From contig JABYQU010000009.1 of NCBI GenBank assembly GCA_022264855.1, positions 248,001 through 312,000 on the forward strand: a stretch of DNA of 64,000 nt, given 5' to 3'. Made by a program: the position numbers and the translations under genes. The notes under the pieces were generated by a model. It was given only the letters and a program-made list of their open reading frames with translations, did not search any database and was not told the DNA's origin. The number at the start of each line of letters is the position of its first letter. Position 1 is the first letter of the stretch. This document shows positions 42,460 through 51,833 of the stretch, one piece after another. Origin of the DNA: Lenzites betulinus. Taxonomy: Eukaryota; Basidiomycota; Agaricomycetes; Polyporales; Polyporaceae.

Positions 42460-45400
42460 ATGGGCAACTCACGAGCCCGCACGACGAAGGCTGTGCGAAC
42501 CGCGGGACCTGCACCATACCGTCGTACGGATGGAGACGGGGGTCCCACCCGCAAGACGTTCCGCTCCCAGGTCGTTCGCACAGATGAGATAGCCCGACGG
42601 CATACCAAGGCTCTTCAGCAGTACGAGTTAAACTTATCCGGTGAGTTCACACATGGCGAATATCTGGACCCTTCAGCTGATCGTGCATAGGACTGGATGA
42701 GCAAACACTACGGGTACTCTCCGCCGCCCGTGGGGATGCTCCTTCGGACATACCGGCATCAAGTAGCGGGCAAGACATCGATGAGGACGGTTACAAGGAC
42801 ACGGGTCCCACCGAGCATCATGACGACAACGACGATGCATGGGAAGATATGGAAGACGGCGTTGAAGTCGAGGACAAGGAAATGGAGCATCTCCTGGAGT
42901 TTGCGTGCGTACTCTCTCTGTGCGTGATTTTATTGATCTATATCCCTTGTTGTCGCAGACATCGCTACCGCAAACGCTCCGATAAACGGACGTGGCGTCA
43001 GCGCGTCCAACGGCAAGATCACCACTGGAATGCTGTCATGCCACGACTCGTCGACGCCTACATAGGCTGGCGTTACACCCCCTCCACTTCTTCCAAACCT
43101 CCCGCCCATGGATCACTTCATGATGATGTAAGTGCGCCCCCGCAGGAGGATCCACGTCTCTCAGGCCCATCAACACAGGGGAGCAGATGTTCCTCACCGG
43201 CTGGTCCCCAGGGGGATGCGTCTACGGGGTCTCCCGCACCCGCCAGCCCCTCAAACCCCCTCAACGCGCCACCTGCGTCGACAGGAGTCACGGGTGAGTG
43301 TCGACGCCTCCAGCACAGGTCTGGCACGCCCTTACATTATACGCTGCCATCAGATACAGCGCCGAACACCTCGCAGACATTCTCCTTCGACATCGATGTC
43401 TTCGACATCCTCTCAACCTCTTCTCAGGCATCCATATCTTCAGATTCCGCGCTGTCAGTGGCCGAAGCTCTCGTCTCCAACGGCTATCTTGGGTCCACCC
43501 CGGTCACGCCGTCTCTCGCGATCTCGCTACACACCCTGGAGCTCCTCCGGCGCATTCGCTTATTCAAAGCCTCCTTCAGTCTTGAAGCCTTCGCAAAGCT
43601 CGTGTGCTACTACTACAGTGTAGGTATGGTGATCTCATGAGCATCTCCTCATCTGACGCCCTGCAGGTCCCCTATCAAAGGACCGTCCGCAACGCGATCT
43701 CCGACTCCTTCGACATCTACCTCGCCATCTTGCGCGCAGTGAGAAAACGTGTCATGGGGGCCTTGGGACGGGAATCTCCCGACTGGAGAGTATGCAATGC
43801 CTGTCCAGCGTGCTGCTACAAGGTGAGTCATGACGCCATCATCCGACTTACTGAAAATACTAATCATATTGAACCAGCTTGAAGGGGAACCCGCACAGTC
43901 CTTCTCCCGTCTATTCTGCATGGACGGGAACAACTCTCTCAAGCGTATGCGTCCACTCGGGGGCCGCAAGGTCGGCGACGACAGGGTGTTCACTGACAGT
44001 GACTACTACCTCCCCCAGGGGTTTGTCGACGCATACGCAAATGAGGTTCATTCAAAGGCAAAGCAGGCAGACCCCCGTCCCTCGTCACCTCATGTCATGG
44101 AACCCGATATGTCAGAACCTCGTCTGGACGTCGACGTTGATATGTCCGATGACACCGAAGCGCTCCCCTTGGGCCGTCCGTGCCTAGATGCGCCTTCCGC
44201 CCGGGATCACGCCGACCCCTCTCCCCCTGACTCTGATGTCCCGAGCTCTGCCCCCGCTATGGCCGTCTCTGCTGATCCAGGTACAGTCCCCGCCGAACCC
44301 GCCGTCGAGCACTCCGTCAGTGGGCCGCTGGCAATATCAGAGGTCGAGGCCCCGGAAGGTGATCCTACCGACGGCGATCCAGCCGTCACGACGTGTACGA
44401 AGAACTGGAAGGCCGCTCAATCAGACGACAAGAAACGTTCCTGGGACGTTTTTGAAGAGACAGGAGTGTTCGTGAGCGCGTGCCGCCACGGCTTGATACT
44501 GTGGATAATCGACATGGTGCGAAGCGGGGAGTTGTAAGTTATCTTGTCGTTGCTCGTACACTTTACTGATCACTGTCTTCAGAGCTCGGTACCCTCTCGC
44601 TACAATCGCCAAGGCCCTGGACGTCTTTGAGCACTGTACGATGTGCGGCTATGACGTGGGGTGTTCATTCCTCGCGATGATCCAAAGGAGCTCCCTTGGC
44701 AAGCGATTCAATGACGCGGGGTGTCGGATGTGCGTGAACGCATTCCACGGGTACTCGCATGAGTACTCATGCCAGGTCCAACACCATCCAAACTGTATCG
44801 AGGGGATGGGCCTTGAAGATCTCGAGACCATGGAACGGATCTTCAGCGCCTCGAACCAGCTAGCGCCCGTGATCCGTTACGCTTCAGCCTACCGTCGTCG
44901 GGTCTTGATCGATGCATTCTACCAGCAGTGGGATGAAGAGAAGTACCTCAATCTTGGGAAGATGCTGTTTGACAACTATCGGCAGGCTCTGGGGATTATA
45001 CGCGAGCAGGGTATCGTCGTCGCCGAGGCGATGAAGTCGCTCGGTCTGACGCCAGAAGACCTCGTCAAGTTTGCGGTTGAGGAACGTGCGTACCTGCGCT
45101 CCCTTGGCAATGAATCATCGCAAGACTTACACCAAATCGCGTACGTCGAGGGGCTGGAGGAGTTGCGGGCTATTTCGTGAGCTGAACATGTACGAGTATG
45201 TGCTAGTACTAACTTCGCGCTTAGTACTCAACTTGCAAGGGCAACAAGAAGCTTCCTTGCCGCCGATGGGGCCCCCGATCTCACATTCCTACCGCCTCAT
45301 GCGGGGCCTACGAACTACGAGGACGAGACGTCCCGAACGCGCAAGATCGAGACTAATCGGCGGTATCTGGACGCCCGTCGCAAGGTTCTCATGCTTGAGG

Positions 45401-46320
45401 TCGCTGACCTCGAGGTGCACTTAGGCATCACCGCTTCATGGCAGCCAGGTGATGCGGAGTACATACGCGTTGCGCAGTACGTTGCAACTCGCAAGTACCA
45501 GCGCGCGCTGTCGAATCTCCAGCGCCTTGTCGTCCAACGTCTTTTCGAACTACACAAGATGAACATCTCACAAACTGGTACGTCCGTATGTCAATGTCTC
45601 AACAACTGTAGCTTTCACTTACGTCTATCAGGGTACCGTATGCGGCGTCATATCGCGAAAAATATGCAGACGCGGTCGCGCGCCCTCCGGAACGCGATCC
45701 AGACGTACAACTCCGCTGCTGCCGCCCTTGACCCGCCTAGACCCAAGCTGGACTGGGACACGGTGTCGCACTATCATCTCCTGCAAGAGTTCGAGCTGTT
45801 GAACGATACACGAGCTGACGTCCGTGACAAGCCGTGGGCCCAGCCAGCCGTCCGCGAAACTGTGCGACGGGCGCGACGCGTTGCACGTGCTCACGAGGAG
45901 ATCGCGTCTGTAAACCTCGAGGCACAGCGTGTGCACACATCGATCCATGACGAGGAGAGAATGTTTGCACGCATCCTTGAACAACTTCGCAGTACTAACG
46001 ACATCGCGTACGGTGCTGTGCTTGAGTACACGACTCGCCGGCGTGCAGCCAGCGCTCACGTCCTGACATCGCTCAAGAAACTGTATGCTCTGGAGGGTTT
46101 TTCTGGCAACCCCACACCCGGTCGGCGTATGGGCACGCCTCCCACGCCTCCATTCGGCGGACATGGAGGAGCTATGCGAGAGCCTCGCGACATTGCGATG
46201 TCGGAGGCAACGGGTCAGAGTAGTGGTGTCGATGAAGCCGAAGAGGAGGATCTTGAGGACGATGATGTCCAAGGGGAGCTAACCACGTTGACGGACTTCT
46301 ATGGCACTTTGAGTCTGTAG
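42460..46320 (+). CDS. KDZ (Kyakuja-Dileera-Zisupton) transposase, full length
   Basis: Nine exons: 42460-42640, 42691-42904, 42959-43293, 43354-43619, 43667-43822, 43878-44533, 44583-45176, 45225-45577 and 45632-46320, giving 1147 aa with all phases consistent and no internal stop. The N-terminal part is acidic, followed by an RYRKRSDKRTWRQRVQRQDH helix. FDIDVFDILSTSSQ, NGYLGSTPVTPSLAISLHTL and ALGRESPDWRVCNACPACCY follow, with a CxxC pair. The RNase H-like core shows the conserved MDGNNSLKR (Asp near 400), GYDVGCSFL (near 622), HHPNCIEGMGLEDLE (catalytic Glu region near 667) and VIRYASAYRRRVLIDAFYQQ. The C terminus is a long helical region (VRETVRRARRVARAHEEIAS) and an acidic tail. It should catalyse cut-and-paste movement of the 41609-54865 element. 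Confidence 0.96.
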
Positions 46321-47493: not shown

Positions 47494-48823
47494 ATGGCAC
47501 GCTATGCAGACGCCGCGGTCAAAGAAGAATACGAGGACCCTGCGGCAGATGAGGAGCACGCTGATGCGTTCTACCTGGCGGGAGCATACTACGTTGTCGT
47601 GGACCGGGCCAATCCGGGGATTTACGAGACTCGGTATGTAGTATGTACTTATTGCTACTCGTTCTGTGCTCACATGGTGGTGTCGCATATGTCAGTCCGC
47701 CCGGAATCGCGCTCGGCAAGCACATCGACTTGCTTCCCATTGTTATAGTCTGCCGGGACAAGACAATGGCGGAGCAAGTTTATCGGCTCAACGACATTCT
47801 TCAGGATATCGAGGGTCCCGACAACGCTAATGTCCTTCGCAATGCATTCGCCAACTCCCCGTACGTCAAGCGGCACTTCATGCAGCCCTTCGAGCACAAG
47901 TTCTATGCTATGAAAGTGGCTACGCAAACAGGCATATACTACGGGTTTGATTGGTACGCCGCCCCTCCTGTGCGCTATCGCCATATAACATTCTACCGCT
48001 AACTTCTCCTTCTTGCCATAGGGCCGTTTATGTACGCCCGCTCACCCGATGCAAAATGGCGGAGTACAGAGGGTTCCATATGCTTGGGAACACCCTCGTC
48101 TGGATGCTCGAAAAGCGCCATCTGCAGCCGGTGTTCAAGGAGAGCGGCGAGAGCAGCGCGGGCCGCGGCGCACTCAGAGTTACCAGCCCTCCGATTCCCA
48201 GCGATGCACCGACCCCAGGGGATGGCCCACACGCCGTCGATGGACCCACCGTGCAGTCGCTTCGCGCGCCACCCAACAGCCCTCAGAAGGCCCGGACCCG
48301 ACTCCCTGCGCCCGACTTTGCGAACGTCAACACCAAGATGCGCTCCCCTGCCGGCCCCGCGTTGCCCATAAAGACGAGTGCATCCCGCCCGGCCTCCCCT
48401 GTGAAGATGAGCACATCCCGCCCTGGCTCACCTGTGAAGCGCAGCGGGTCGCCTGTCAAGATCGGCTCTTCGATGCCCTTTACGCCATCGACGATACCCG
48501 GGCCTCCTCTCTCACCGCGGAACCTTCAGGGCAACTTTCCCCCACTTGCCTCGCCGTCGTTTGCCCAGGTGCGCAGGGTGTCTCCGACGCGCGCATACGA
48601 TGAGTATGCCCAAACGTCCCGCGACATGTACTGTGAGTCAGCCCATCTTGATTGTGTATCGAGCTAACATGTTTACCCAGCCGTCCATGTTTCCGATGAC
48701 GAAAGTGAGGCTGGCACTGAGGATGACCCGCCGCACTCCATCTTCCATCAGCTCCGCCGTATCATCCGCCCCGCCAGCAGCCTCCCGGCCTCCGATATGA
48801 TCCACCAGCTGATGTACTCCTGA
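47494..48823 (+). CDS. Unrecognised KDZ-transposon cargo gene, truncated by a nested element
   Basis: Four exons: 47494-47633, 47696-47953, 48022-48632 and 48681-48823, giving 383 aa. The first half is a folded-looking domain: AFYLAGAYYVVVDRANPGIY, GKHIDLLPIVIVCRDKTMAE, SPYVKRHFMQPFEHKFYAMK and GFHMLGNTLVWMLEKRHLQP. The YYVVVDRANPGIY stretch resembles the small RNA:DNA-binding domain at the N terminus of RNase H1, but this is a weak likeness. The second half is a Ser/Pro/Lys-rich repeat (SRPASPVKMSTSRPGSPVKR). The last native codons are ATG ATC CAC CAG CTG; the frame then enters the foldback element and stops after four more codons. The original C terminus probably lies at 51350-51833. The role in transposition is unknown; it shows no TET/JBP dioxygenase motif. 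Confidence 0.75.
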
Positions 48824-49681
48824 TGTATCAGGAACCGTTTGGGACTCCGCGCCGCTTTACATCAGGAACAGGAAGCGTTCCTGATGTATCACGGGCGGCC
48901 GGGGGCGCCAGCGCTGCCCTCCGGGACCTGCCTTATATGGTAGGCAGGCCCGGGAGACAGCGCTAGCGCCCCCGGGAGTCTCTGATCTGTTATCTAATGT
49001 AGATTGTGAGCTTATCTCATCTCCCTGTGCTTTCCTGCGCGCGCCTCTGTCTCCCTCTCAGCCACTTCCGGATTAGGCAGGTCTGCCTCAGCCAGCCACC
49101 CCCTGCTTGCTCCCACCCTACCTCGATCAAATCTCGTCCGATTCGCTTCAAACCTAGCGCATCTTACTCGGGTGTACCTACGCTACAATCGCGCGCAGAC
49201 GGAACGGGAATCGGGTAAGTACTGATTGCGCTACAGTGGATACAGTAACAGGGTAAAAGAGGCGGCAAAGAACGGGCGATATCTCGTCCGTTCTTTGTCG
49301 CCTCAGCGCGCGAATTGTTTTCCCATCAAGAGGGATTTCTGCGCGTTCGAACGAGCCCGCACAAGCGCAAATCGGCCGACGGACGGTGGAGCTGCGCTCC
49401 GCCCACCCCGGGGGGAGTGCAGCTCCACTTCCTGTGCTCATTTTTCGTTCGTTTTGGCTAGTCTTTGTTTCTTTTGGTTACTACTACATTGTAAGACACA
49501 GGTAGTACGTTTTACGAACAAACTAGGGCCCAGAAATGCGTCGAGGAGGGTGGGTAATAGTGAAATACTACCCACCTTCCTCGACCCATAGCGCTGCCGT
49601 TTCGGCGCGTATCGCCGCGCAAAAGGCAACGCCAGAAAGCGGCGGAATGCAGCTTTCTAGCGTTTCCTTTTGCGCGGCGAT
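48812..49681 (+). repeat. Left arm of foldback element, with seven internal hairpins
   Basis: Hairpins in order: 48818-48833 (TCCTGA stem), 48858-48888 (12-bp perfect stem TACATCAGGAAC), 48899-48975 (stem beginning CCGGGGGCGC, long with few mismatches), 49259-49304 (17-bp stem GAGGCGGCAAAGAACGG with one mismatch), 49386-49428 (stem GTGGAGCTGC), 49540-49585 (17-bp stem GTCGAGGAGGGTGGGTA with one mismatch) and 49611-49681 (30-bp stem starting ATCGCCGCGCAAAAGG with two mismatches). Confidence 0.9.
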
Positions 49682-50036
49682 CGGACCGCAGGAACCCGCC
49701 CAATACATCAATTTATGTCTCATACACAGTCAGCTACAGTTTCGTGTATAGCCCCATGTAAACCACATAAAGTCTCATTCTGACTTCTGCCATGTATGTA
49801 TATAGGTTTCCTCCATGTGAATATCAACTTACAGCACCATCGCCCTTGGTGTGCATGTATAATCTACTTATCTATAGTACGAATATATGTCCTCGCCGCA
49901 TGTGATCCGCGAAACCGATCGTAATATAAATTGGCAGGATTGGTACGCTATGGAACCGCTAGCAGCACACCAAAGTACAGAGGAAACAGAAAAGAAGTGA
50001 CCGAGATAGCATGCGATTACTGCAGACATGCAGGTA

Positions 50037-50069
50037 GCCGCCCACCGTCTTAAGACGGTCTCGGGCGGC
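50037..50069. repeat. Central hairpin in the foldback element
   Basis: GCCGCCC and GGGCGGC pair around the 16-bp perfect palindrome ACCGTCTTAAGACGGT, with a 3-nt bulge. It lies near the middle of the spacer between the two arms. Confidence 0.8.
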
Positions 50070-50473
50070 TTCAGCAGGTCTGTATGTACAGCACAGTACC
50101 TACAGACCCTGTAGAACACTTTGTAAGACAGTAATTCGAGTTTTCCGCCGATTTACATGTATTTGGGCTCGTTTGAAAGCTGTATACGACTGCTATCTAG
50201 CCACTTACTCTATGAATATATTTGTGCTCTCAGTAGCTATGTATCAGCCAACTTAGTGTGCACTAGTCGCAGTTTTTGAGTTTTCAATGACTTCCTGTGT
50301 TTATTGGGGACAGATGAATCTACATTGTTATTTAGGAGGTAGCTATAGTACATTAGGTATCAAGTAACATGTATGCAGTGTTCTAGAGTACCTGTGAAGA
50401 GATGGAAGGGGGCTGAGCAGCTGAGGGGGGGGAGGAGGAGCAGAGAGGGATAGCGAAGCGATACGTGGTCGTA

Positions 50474-51343
50474 TCGCCGCGCAAAAGGCAACACTAGAAA
50501 GCTGCATTCCGCCGCTTTCTGGCGTTGCCTTTTGCGCGGCGATACGCGCCGAAATGGCAGCGCTATGGGTCGAGGAAGGTGGGTACTAGCCCCACTACTA
50601 CCCACCCTCCTCGACATGTTTCTGGGGCGTTTTTTGGCTGTTCTACGTACTACCTGTGCGGCTCAATGTATTAGTAACTAAACACAATAGGTGCGAGCCA
50701 AAACGAACGAAAAATGAGCACAGGAAGTGGAGCTGCACTCCCCCCGGGGTGGGCGGAGCGCAGCTCCACCGTCCGTCGGCCGATTTGCGCTTGTGCGGGC
50801 TCGTTCGAACGCGCAGAAATCCCTCTTGATGGGAAAACAATTCGCGCGCTGAGGCGACAAAGAACGGACGAGATATCGCCCGTTCTTTGCCGCCTCTTTT
50901 ACCCTGTTACTGTATCCACTGTAGCGCAATCAGTACTTACCCGATTCCCGTTCCGTCTGCGCGCGATTGTAGCGTAGGTACACCCGAGTAAGATGCGCTA
51001 GGTTTGAAGCGAATCGGACGAGATTTGATCGAGGTAGGGTGGGAGCAAGCAGGGGGTGGCTGGCTGAGGCAGACCTGCCTAATCCGGAAGTGGCTGAGAG
51101 GGAGACAGAGGCGCGCGCAGGAAAGCACAGGGAGATGAGATAAGCTCACAATCTACATTAGATAACAGATCAGAGACTCCCGGGGGCGCTAGCGCTGTCT
51201 CCCGGGCCTGCCTACCATATAAGGCAGGTCCCGGAGGGCAGCGCTGGCGCCCCCGGCCGCCCGTGATACATCAGGAACGCTTCCTGTTCCTGATGTAAAG
51301 CGGCGCGGAGTCCCAAACGGTTCCTGATACATCAGGAGTACAT
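50474..51343 (-). repeat. Right arm of foldback element
   Basis: Reverse complement of the left arm. The inner hairpins recur at 50473-50543 (ATCGCCGCGCAAAAGG stem) and 50569-50615 (GTCGAGGAAGGTGGGTA stem), with mutations that differ from those in the left arm yet keep the stems paired. The outer 649 nt (50695-51343) match the left arm without differences that I could find. Confidence 0.9.
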
Positions 51344-51349
51344 CAGCTG

Positions 51350-51833
51350 GTGACCTCTCGCCGCAGATGCTGTCGCCATCTCGACCGACATCCTCTCGAC
51401 CAATGCCACCTTGACCGCCGCCGCCACCTCGACCGACACCGGCTCGACCAACGCCACCGCCGCCGCCTCGACCGACACCAGCTCGACCAACGCTACCTCG
51501 ACCGCCGCCGCCATTCCCACTACGACGGCCTCGATACCAGTGCCTACTACTGCCATCAGCACAGGCGGTGTCGCTGCGCCAGTACCTACTTCGACCGGCA
51601 ATGCTCACCCTCCTACCACGTCGACAGGTTCTGCCCGCGCTCAAGCCCGCGCAGGCATGACATTCATCGCCATGGATGTCGTCACCAATGCAAGCGGTCG
51701 GTCTGTCGCTGTTGGGAAGCGTCCGCGCAAGCCGCGCAAAGGAAAGACGACCGATGGAGCAGCCGAGGGAACTGAAGGCCCCCGTAAGCGCAAGAAATCG
51801 AAGGCGGGCGATGGCCAGTCCACAGGGGCGTAG
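51350..51833 (+). pseudogene. Probable detached C-terminal part of the KDZ cargo gene
   Basis: Directly after the foldback element one frame encodes a Thr/Ala/Ser-rich repeat (ATSTDTGSTNATAAAS), then a basic tail (VGKRPRKPRKGK, GPRKRKKSKAGD) with nuclear-localisation character and a stop at 51833. Removing the foldback element and one CAGCTG would join it to the 47494 gene, but one base out of frame, so either a small intron or an extra indel is also involved. The first clear codons are DAVAISTDI from 51367. Confidence 0.55.

Follow-up and report, generated by a model that had tools for sequence, protein, structure and literature searches.

What is a 2.55-kb palindrome that encodes no protein doing in the genome of a wood-decaying polypore, and why should its arms be strings of hairpins? 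The question is raised by a foldback element at positions 48803-51352 of a 64,000-nt stretch of the 37.4 Mb genome of Lenzites betulinus (C98:248001-312000, where C numbers label contigs; the stretch is called the window in what follows). Our reading, to which we assign a probability of roughly 0.85, is that the foldback belongs to the KDZ (Kyakuja-Dileera-Zisupton) superfamily as a non-coding, non-autonomous, Kyakuja-like DNA transposon, that its hairpins are constrained and that the copy in the window is probably a recombinant.

Architecture and Boundaries

An initial annotation of the window had recognized a foldback, and inverted-repeat comparison bears this out, with two arms of ~885 nt that are 96% complementary overall (48803-49562/50593-51352, 760 nt, 96%; inner block 49566-49687/50467-50588, 122 nt, 95%). 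The limits then given, 48812 and 51343, have to be moved outward by 9 bp on each side because comparison of copies places CACCAGCTG inside the element. Its main parts are:

48803-51352, whole foldback element, the window copy (L035), 2550 bp, A-type end on both sides, no target-site duplication (copy comparison)
48803-49687, + strand, left arm (terminal inverted repeat), ~885 nt
50467-51352, - strand, right arm, outer 600 alignment columns with 0 differences from the left arm
48803-48897, + strand, left terminal module, ~95 bp, starting CACCAGCTG; a loose repeat of 13 bp recurs in it at positions 21, 55 and 82 of the element
51258-51352, - strand, right terminal module, mirror of the left module

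With up to 4 mismatches allowed, the 13-bp repeat is found at position 21 and at 81-82 in 11 of the 11 ends printed and at position 55 in 6 of them; these short repeats are presumed transposase-binding sites.

A Mobile Family Without Coding Capacity

A genome search with one arm of the window copy, one of the checks proposed with the initial annotation, finds matches throughout the genome, and scans for the terminal motifs give 100 ends with one motif and 35 with the other, the two lists overlapping. Because this search scores only its best candidates, the copy numbers are minimum values. The complete copies read number 20 in clade 1 (2548-2564 bp), six in clade 2 (2448-2468 bp) and four in clade 3 (2391-2397 bp), and partial copies were read in addition; a clade is here a grouping by pairwise identity and not by a tree. 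Pairwise identities are 76-100% within clade 1 and 44-54% between clades in global alignment, with local matches between clades 1 and 2 at about 64-80% and higher in short stretches; the arms are about 610-960 nt long in the non-coding copies and about 885 nt in clade 1.

Inverted ends are present in all 30 copies, and the termini read 5'-CA..TG-3' (CACCAGCTG / CAGCCCCTG and variants). The end-search patterns themselves begin with CA, and the support for the termini comes from the exact 7-bp target-site duplications that directly abut them in 25 of the 30 two-ended elements, those without being L009, L033 (one base off), L035, L064 and L069. One A end (CACC.. or CACA..) and one B end (CAGC..) are combined in 28/30 copies, only L064 and the window copy having two alike ends. 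Copy pairs that are 100% identical (rounded) yet carry different duplications (L015/16, L018/19, L026/27 and L031/32) show recent movement, and the exact duplications together with shuffles rule out an artefact of assembly or of chance.

That no protein is encoded, as first stated, is confirmed by a comparison of reading frames, which found no conserved open reading frame in the element. The longest frame exceeds the longest of 50 simple shuffles in 4/20 elements (L024, L025, L061, L063). In clade 1 the longest frame, 206 aa on the minus strand of L031, is intact in 2/20 copies, the sisters L031 and L032; differences at its codon positions 1, 2 and 3 number 478, 511 and 408 over six copies, and a Pfam search of the L031 and L063 frames matched no family. 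A coding element is rejected, the long frame being neither kept among copies nor marked by a third-position excess or a Pfam match. A known RNA family is rejected as well, all matches in an Rfam search being sub-threshold.

Large KDZ-Coding Elements with the Same Ends

A search by terminus for autonomous relatives, again proposed at the outset, led to two large elements with KDZ and CxC2 domains. The one at C79:19016-31641 (12,626 bp) has inverted ends of 344 bp at 98.8%, a 7-bp duplication, GCTGTAT, and reading frames that match KDZ (expectation value, E, 3e-27) and CxC2 (E 1e-39); no TET/JBP match was seen in the ten of its reading frames scanned. Its first ~100 bp are 92-96% identical to the clade-3 copies L062, L066 and L070, L064 being without match. 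The other, at C22:87335-101694 (14,360 bp), has inverted ends of at least 389 bp at 98.2%, a 7-bp duplication, CACAAGA, and KDZ and CxC2 places inside; its first 92 bp are 97.8% identical to the clade-1 copy L029, and beyond ~100 bp its ends have no match to foldback copies among the matches listed. The terminal ~92-100 bp are therefore what coding and non-coding elements have in common. Because two large elements with the same ends and with 7-bp duplications carry KDZ and CxC2, we place the non-coding copies in the KDZ superfamily, and the remark that no named fungal element of this nested design is known has to be qualified insofar as the ends and 7-bp duplications are those of elements with KDZ transposase domains.

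The label Kyakuja-like, a putative one, is based on duplication length and CA..TG ends. Passages of Kojima 2025 (PMC12730594) give 7-bp duplications and 5'-CA..TG-3' ends for Kyakuja, and 8-bp duplications for Zisupton and one Dileera family. We write Kyakuja-like rather than Kyakuja because inverted ends are present in the 30 copies and in both coding partners. In the mechanism that we propose the KDZ transposase of the large relatives would recognize the terminal ~95 bp by binding to their short repeats, and would so move the non-coding copies in trans. Such trans-mobilization presumably occurs, and movement by the KDZ transposase would be the best-supported step of the proposed biology, to judge from the shared ends.

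Several observations pull the other way. The foldback itself lacks a transposase, trans movement being inferred from shared ends; two Laccaria Kyakuja families are reported, in the passages describing them, to lack terminal inverted repeats (PMC12730594); and the large elements have no hairpin string as far as read, the C79 element, read whole, having one palindrome, which is internal, and the C22 ends (1528 and 394 bp scanned) one weak hairpin of score 10. Since the large elements read have no such string, hairpins appear to be dispensable for KDZ transposition as such.

Facing end pairs also lie 29-33 kb apart, at C98:53666-82686 and C87:1688-35024, and the C87 pair flanks two KDZ/CxC2 genes. 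At C19:21130-28798 clade-1 A and B ends (L045, L013) are 7.7 kb apart, probably split by another insertion of about 5 kb. Several copies, on C50, C64, C65 and C99, stop at contig ends, for which reason we suspect that the long inverted repeats break the assembly.

Hairpin Strings in the Arms

The arms composed of hairpins and the central palindrome, described in the initial annotation, are real; the window copy has six strong hairpins per arm and one central hairpin, and shuffled sequences have about none:

48858-48888, + strand, H0 of the left arm (hairpin scan)
48899-48975, + strand, H1 of the left arm, with a stem that hardly varies and has about 34 pairs in the arm consensus
49259-49304, + strand, H2 of the left arm, 21 pairs, with changes on both sides of the stem from clade to clade
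49386-49428, + strand, H3 of the left arm
49536-49590, + strand, H4 of the left arm, apex inverted in some copies
49609-49683, + strand, H5 of the left arm, 34 pairs counted, strongest covariation
50036-50070, + strand, central hairpin with GTCTTAAGAC apex
50470-50546, - strand, H5 of the right arm
50569-50615, - strand, H4 of the right arm (hairpin scan)
50727-50769, - strand, H3 of the right arm
50851-50896, - strand, H2 of the right arm
51180-51256, - strand, H1 of the right arm, mirror of left H1
51267-51297, - strand, H0 of the right arm (hairpin scan)

Six stretches folded as DNA, five of the left arm and one central, have z-scores of -6.3 to -10.3, and the left arm folded as RNA has z = -23 (20 shuffles). 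The hairpin scan lists 10 hairpins in the window copy, H1 being unlisted at the score limit, whereas 10 dinucleotide shuffles average 0.0; it lists 1 in the 48.7 kb of the window that precede the element. Scans covered 17/30 elements, with shuffle means of 0.0-0.1, and gave 6-12 hairpins per copy in clade 1 (10/10 scanned), occupying the same places where found, 2-6 in clade 2 (four scanned) and 0-2 in clade 3 (three scanned). The concern that copies elsewhere might lack the hairpins is thus dispelled for clade 1 and is in part justified outside it, the low numbers in clade 3 counting against our reading. The CTTAAG apex of the central hairpin is kept in the 20 clade-1 and six clade-2 copies listed; by eye, the stem in L061 differs from that of clade 1. 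A stand-alone H1 elsewhere in the genome was sought and rejected, there being none among the 67 matches listed (best 40 of 52 candidates), all of which lie at element arms or beside element ends.

Constraint and Covariation in the Stems

Are the stems under selection? In 26 arms from 13 lineages the diversity, pi, is 0.080 in stems, 0.208 in apices and bulges and 0.218 between hairpins, such that stems vary 2.7 times less than inter-hairpin sequence, a difference that holds for each of the four bases, and 0 of 797 rotations of the stem mask give a pi as low. The window copy and near-duplicates are omitted from this analysis, and the stem mask derives from the fold of an arm consensus (42 arms).

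Compensation was assessed at two hairpins, using shuffle controls that take no account of kinship among copies. For H5 in clades 1 and 2 together (39/46 distinct windows, the 7 of clade 3 being omitted as not alignable) both sides change in 20/34 pairs (15.5 shuffled; 2/500 as high), covarying cells number 103 vs 41.3 shuffled (0/500) and the score is 0.252 vs at most 0.090 when slid; centering of the windows on the best palindrome raises the paired percentage, which the slide control addresses in part. For H2 in the same clades, clade 3 being excluded, both sides change in 7/21 pairs (4.8 shuffled; 23/500), with 30 cells vs 8.4 (0/500). Taken alone, clade 1 gives 21 covarying cells at H5 vs 10.4 shuffled (0/500), and clade 2 gives 12 covarying pairs vs 8.8 (9/500). 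Other statistics count against covariation: within clade 1 the covarying pairs at H5 number 8 vs 6.6 shuffled (142/500 as high) and the pair types 22 vs 24.0 (449/500), the pair types at H2 (15 vs 16.6) are not above the shuffled value, and those at H5 in clade 2 alone (25 vs 23.6; 155/500) are not clearly so. H5 and H2 keep their pairing by both-side changes, clearly between clades and weakly within clade 1.

Selection for structure, suggested earlier from differences between the two arms of the window copy, finds support in other copies, in the low pi and in the both-side changes in H5 and H2, the latter being weak within clade 1. Equally, the stem changes, which might have turned out not to be compensatory, are so between clades at these two hairpins and only modestly within clade 1. 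The example first offered, 49611-49681 versus 50473-50543, is weak alone because each of its two differing positions touches one side of the stem only. Strict arm-with-arm pairing as the conserved unit is rejected, arm-to-arm identity within an element (median 83.7%, 19 elements) barely exceeding the identity found from one element to another (81.2%, 421 comparisons).

What the Hairpins May Do

It is an even bet, in our estimation, that the hairpins function as DNA structures, hairpins or cruciforms that would form in replication, in repair or after cleavage. We favor this role because the signature expected of an RNA strand is not consistent and because apices are inverted between copies: for H4 and H5 there are three pairs of apices in which the one copy has the exact reverse complement of the other, and the H4 apices are only 5 nt, so that inversion there could be chance. 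That the hairpins are instead selected as RNA, with a read-through transcript folding into hairpins and a long duplex that would feed or decoy RNA silencing, we consider unlikely. The RNA fold of the arm is very stable (z -23), the stems are constrained, there is a weak Rfam resemblance to microRNA precursors (all far below the gathering score), and mismatch cells, to the detriment of a DNA role, are more often G-U than A-C in both arms (90/68 in A arms, 86/47 in B arms). This excess, however, arises with a fold picked by RNA energies, which favors G-U, and the counts include fixed G-U pairs; counted as distinct states, G-U and A-C are roughly equal (28/31 in A arms, 21/24 in B arms), counts on H5 (58/69) and H2 (31/36) are nearly so, and at pairs that are usually Watson-Crick A-C outnumbers G-U (174 vs 92). 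The mismatch types are mixed and give no consistent RNA-strand signal, on which ground selection on the RNA strand was set aside. More doubtful still is the notion that paired stems are a by-product of imperfect palindromes that self-correct by template switching without selection; apex inversions and arm-to-arm identity tracts suggest that such DNA exchange occurs, but the 2.7-fold lower variation of stems, seen for each base, is not what theory predicts, as self-correction alone should not slow change, and the hairpins, where found, occupy the same places among the clade-1 copies scanned.

We also venture, tentatively and at somewhat less than even odds, that the copies are selfish DNA that needs a selected hairpin string for mobility or survival. 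They would be non-coding KDZ satellites which have kept only their partner's ~95-bp recognition module and have evolved a hairpin architecture of their own, maintained by compensatory changes between clades whose overall identity is about 50%.

The Window Copy as a Probable Recombinant

The window copy has two A-type ends, no target-site duplication and unlike flanks:

48796-48802, left flanking 7-mer TATGATC, in the accessory gene of a KDZ-type locus, with no match on the right
51353-51359, right flanking 7-mer ACCTCTC

At C33 lies a relative that is not interrupted; the left flank matches it at 80% over 145 bp, right up to the base that adjoins the element. The left-flank gene is not resumed in the right flank, which from its base 28 matches C33 (72%) at a place some 1.9 kb downstream. 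The window lineage probably once had the missing ~1.9 kb. Between the two arms there are 0 differences over the outer 600 columns, and 2, 20, 13, 1 and 11 in the successive blocks of 60 that follow. What best fits these data is that the window copy would be the product of arm-with-arm recombination that deleted about 1.9 kb, and no simple insertion: long inverted arms would recombine and convert one another, and here the exchange would have joined the A arm of one copy to the B arm of a sister copy lying in inverted orientation, the ~1.9 kb between them being lost. L064 also has no duplication and near-identical outer arms. It counts against recombination that the reciprocal product was not found among the copies read.

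A single insertion, with the far arm converted by the near arm and a separate flanking deletion, strikes us as improbable. Arm identity tracts do occur in other copies, some with intact duplications; in L061, L065 and L070 the outer arms are near-identical although the termini are unlike and the duplications intact, and such conversion without loss of DNA makes conversion plus a separate deletion possible for the window copy. Yet its tract of identity takes in the terminus itself and extends no further, both ends are A-type, the missing ~1.9 kb starts at the left element edge, and L064, the sole other copy among 30 with two alike ends, is likewise without duplication. An assignment of the element to another superfamily of foldbacks (P/Galileo, hAT7 or Mutator type) is highly improbable. 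Mutator elements (Mutator-like elements, MULEs) make duplications of 8-11 bp, and this type is rejected at the 7 bp seen here. As described in the passages at hand, hAT7 families likewise have 7-bp duplications, and Galileo has these together with long ends and chimeric copies (PMC2775673), but it is KDZ and CxC2 domains that are found in the two large elements sharing the ends of the foldback. A scan for the P-family transposase (PF21787) gave no match, nor did it give any in control genomes.

Perfect or near-perfect arm-to-arm tracts amid normal divergence, a sign of arm conversion, are seen in L024, L025, L033, L061, L065 and L070. The closest relative of the window copy, L053 (C42:336268-340042; middle part 93%), has a truncated left end, a ~650-bp insertion in the right arm and, by eye, a zinc-knuckle-like frame beside it; it was rejected as the reciprocal recombinant, the flank of its one intact end not matching (by eye).

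The window holds a KDZ transposase gene at 42681-46320 (+ strand; KDZ place 43902-44934, E 1e-40; CxC1 match below cut-off), and the foldback is set in a gene downstream of it, i.e., in a second KDZ-type locus. The interrupted gene, just left of the foldback, is an accessory gene of such a locus: on C33, C18, C20, C62, C90, C63, C1 and C64 its relatives are no more than about 3 kb away from KDZ places. It is annotated as C2E23DRAFT_883154; the end of the annotated protein, HQLMYS, is read from the foldback end (48803-48820), an annotation artefact caused by the insertion.

Comparison with Known Systems

Non-autonomous DNA transposons are usually viewed as two ends plus filler. A 2.55-kb non-coding element that holds its length and hairpin places while its letters change is a testable sign of selection on structure. 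Miniature inverted-repeat transposable elements (MITEs) and other non-autonomous DNA transposons share only their ends with coding partners, and so do the foldback copies; such elements are, however, usually far shorter than the 2.4-2.56 kb found here and usually without the conserved internal hairpin string that the foldback copies have.

Like Kyakuja, as characterized in passages of PMC12730594, the family has 7-bp duplications, CA..TG ends, a KDZ transposase in its large relatives and an occurrence in Polyporales. The Laccaria Kyakuja of those passages are coding and have no inverted repeats, whereas the foldback copies are non-coding with hairpin arms, and in their coding partners the inverted ends measure 344 and at least 389 bp. 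The KDZ1-3 elements of Cryptococcus neoformans are likewise large (9-11 kb, inverted ends of 139-241 bp) but have duplications of 8 bp (KDZ1) or 4-8 bp (KDZ2, KDZ3) and a CxC1 domain, and the passages on them describe no hairpin-rich non-coding partner (PMC12810828). A limited literature search found no hairpin-rich non-coding KDZ elements; such partners are here described for KDZ transposons of a mushroom-forming fungus. Galileo of Drosophila, in the passages of PMC2775673, resembles the family in its 7-bp duplications, long inverted ends and chimeric copies by ectopic recombination, and differs in belonging to the P superfamily and in being associated with inversions, not a deletion, hairpin strings being unmentioned in those passages. 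The foldback of the window, which borders on what appears to be a deletion in the genome, is in this respect comparable to Galileo at Drosophila inversions.

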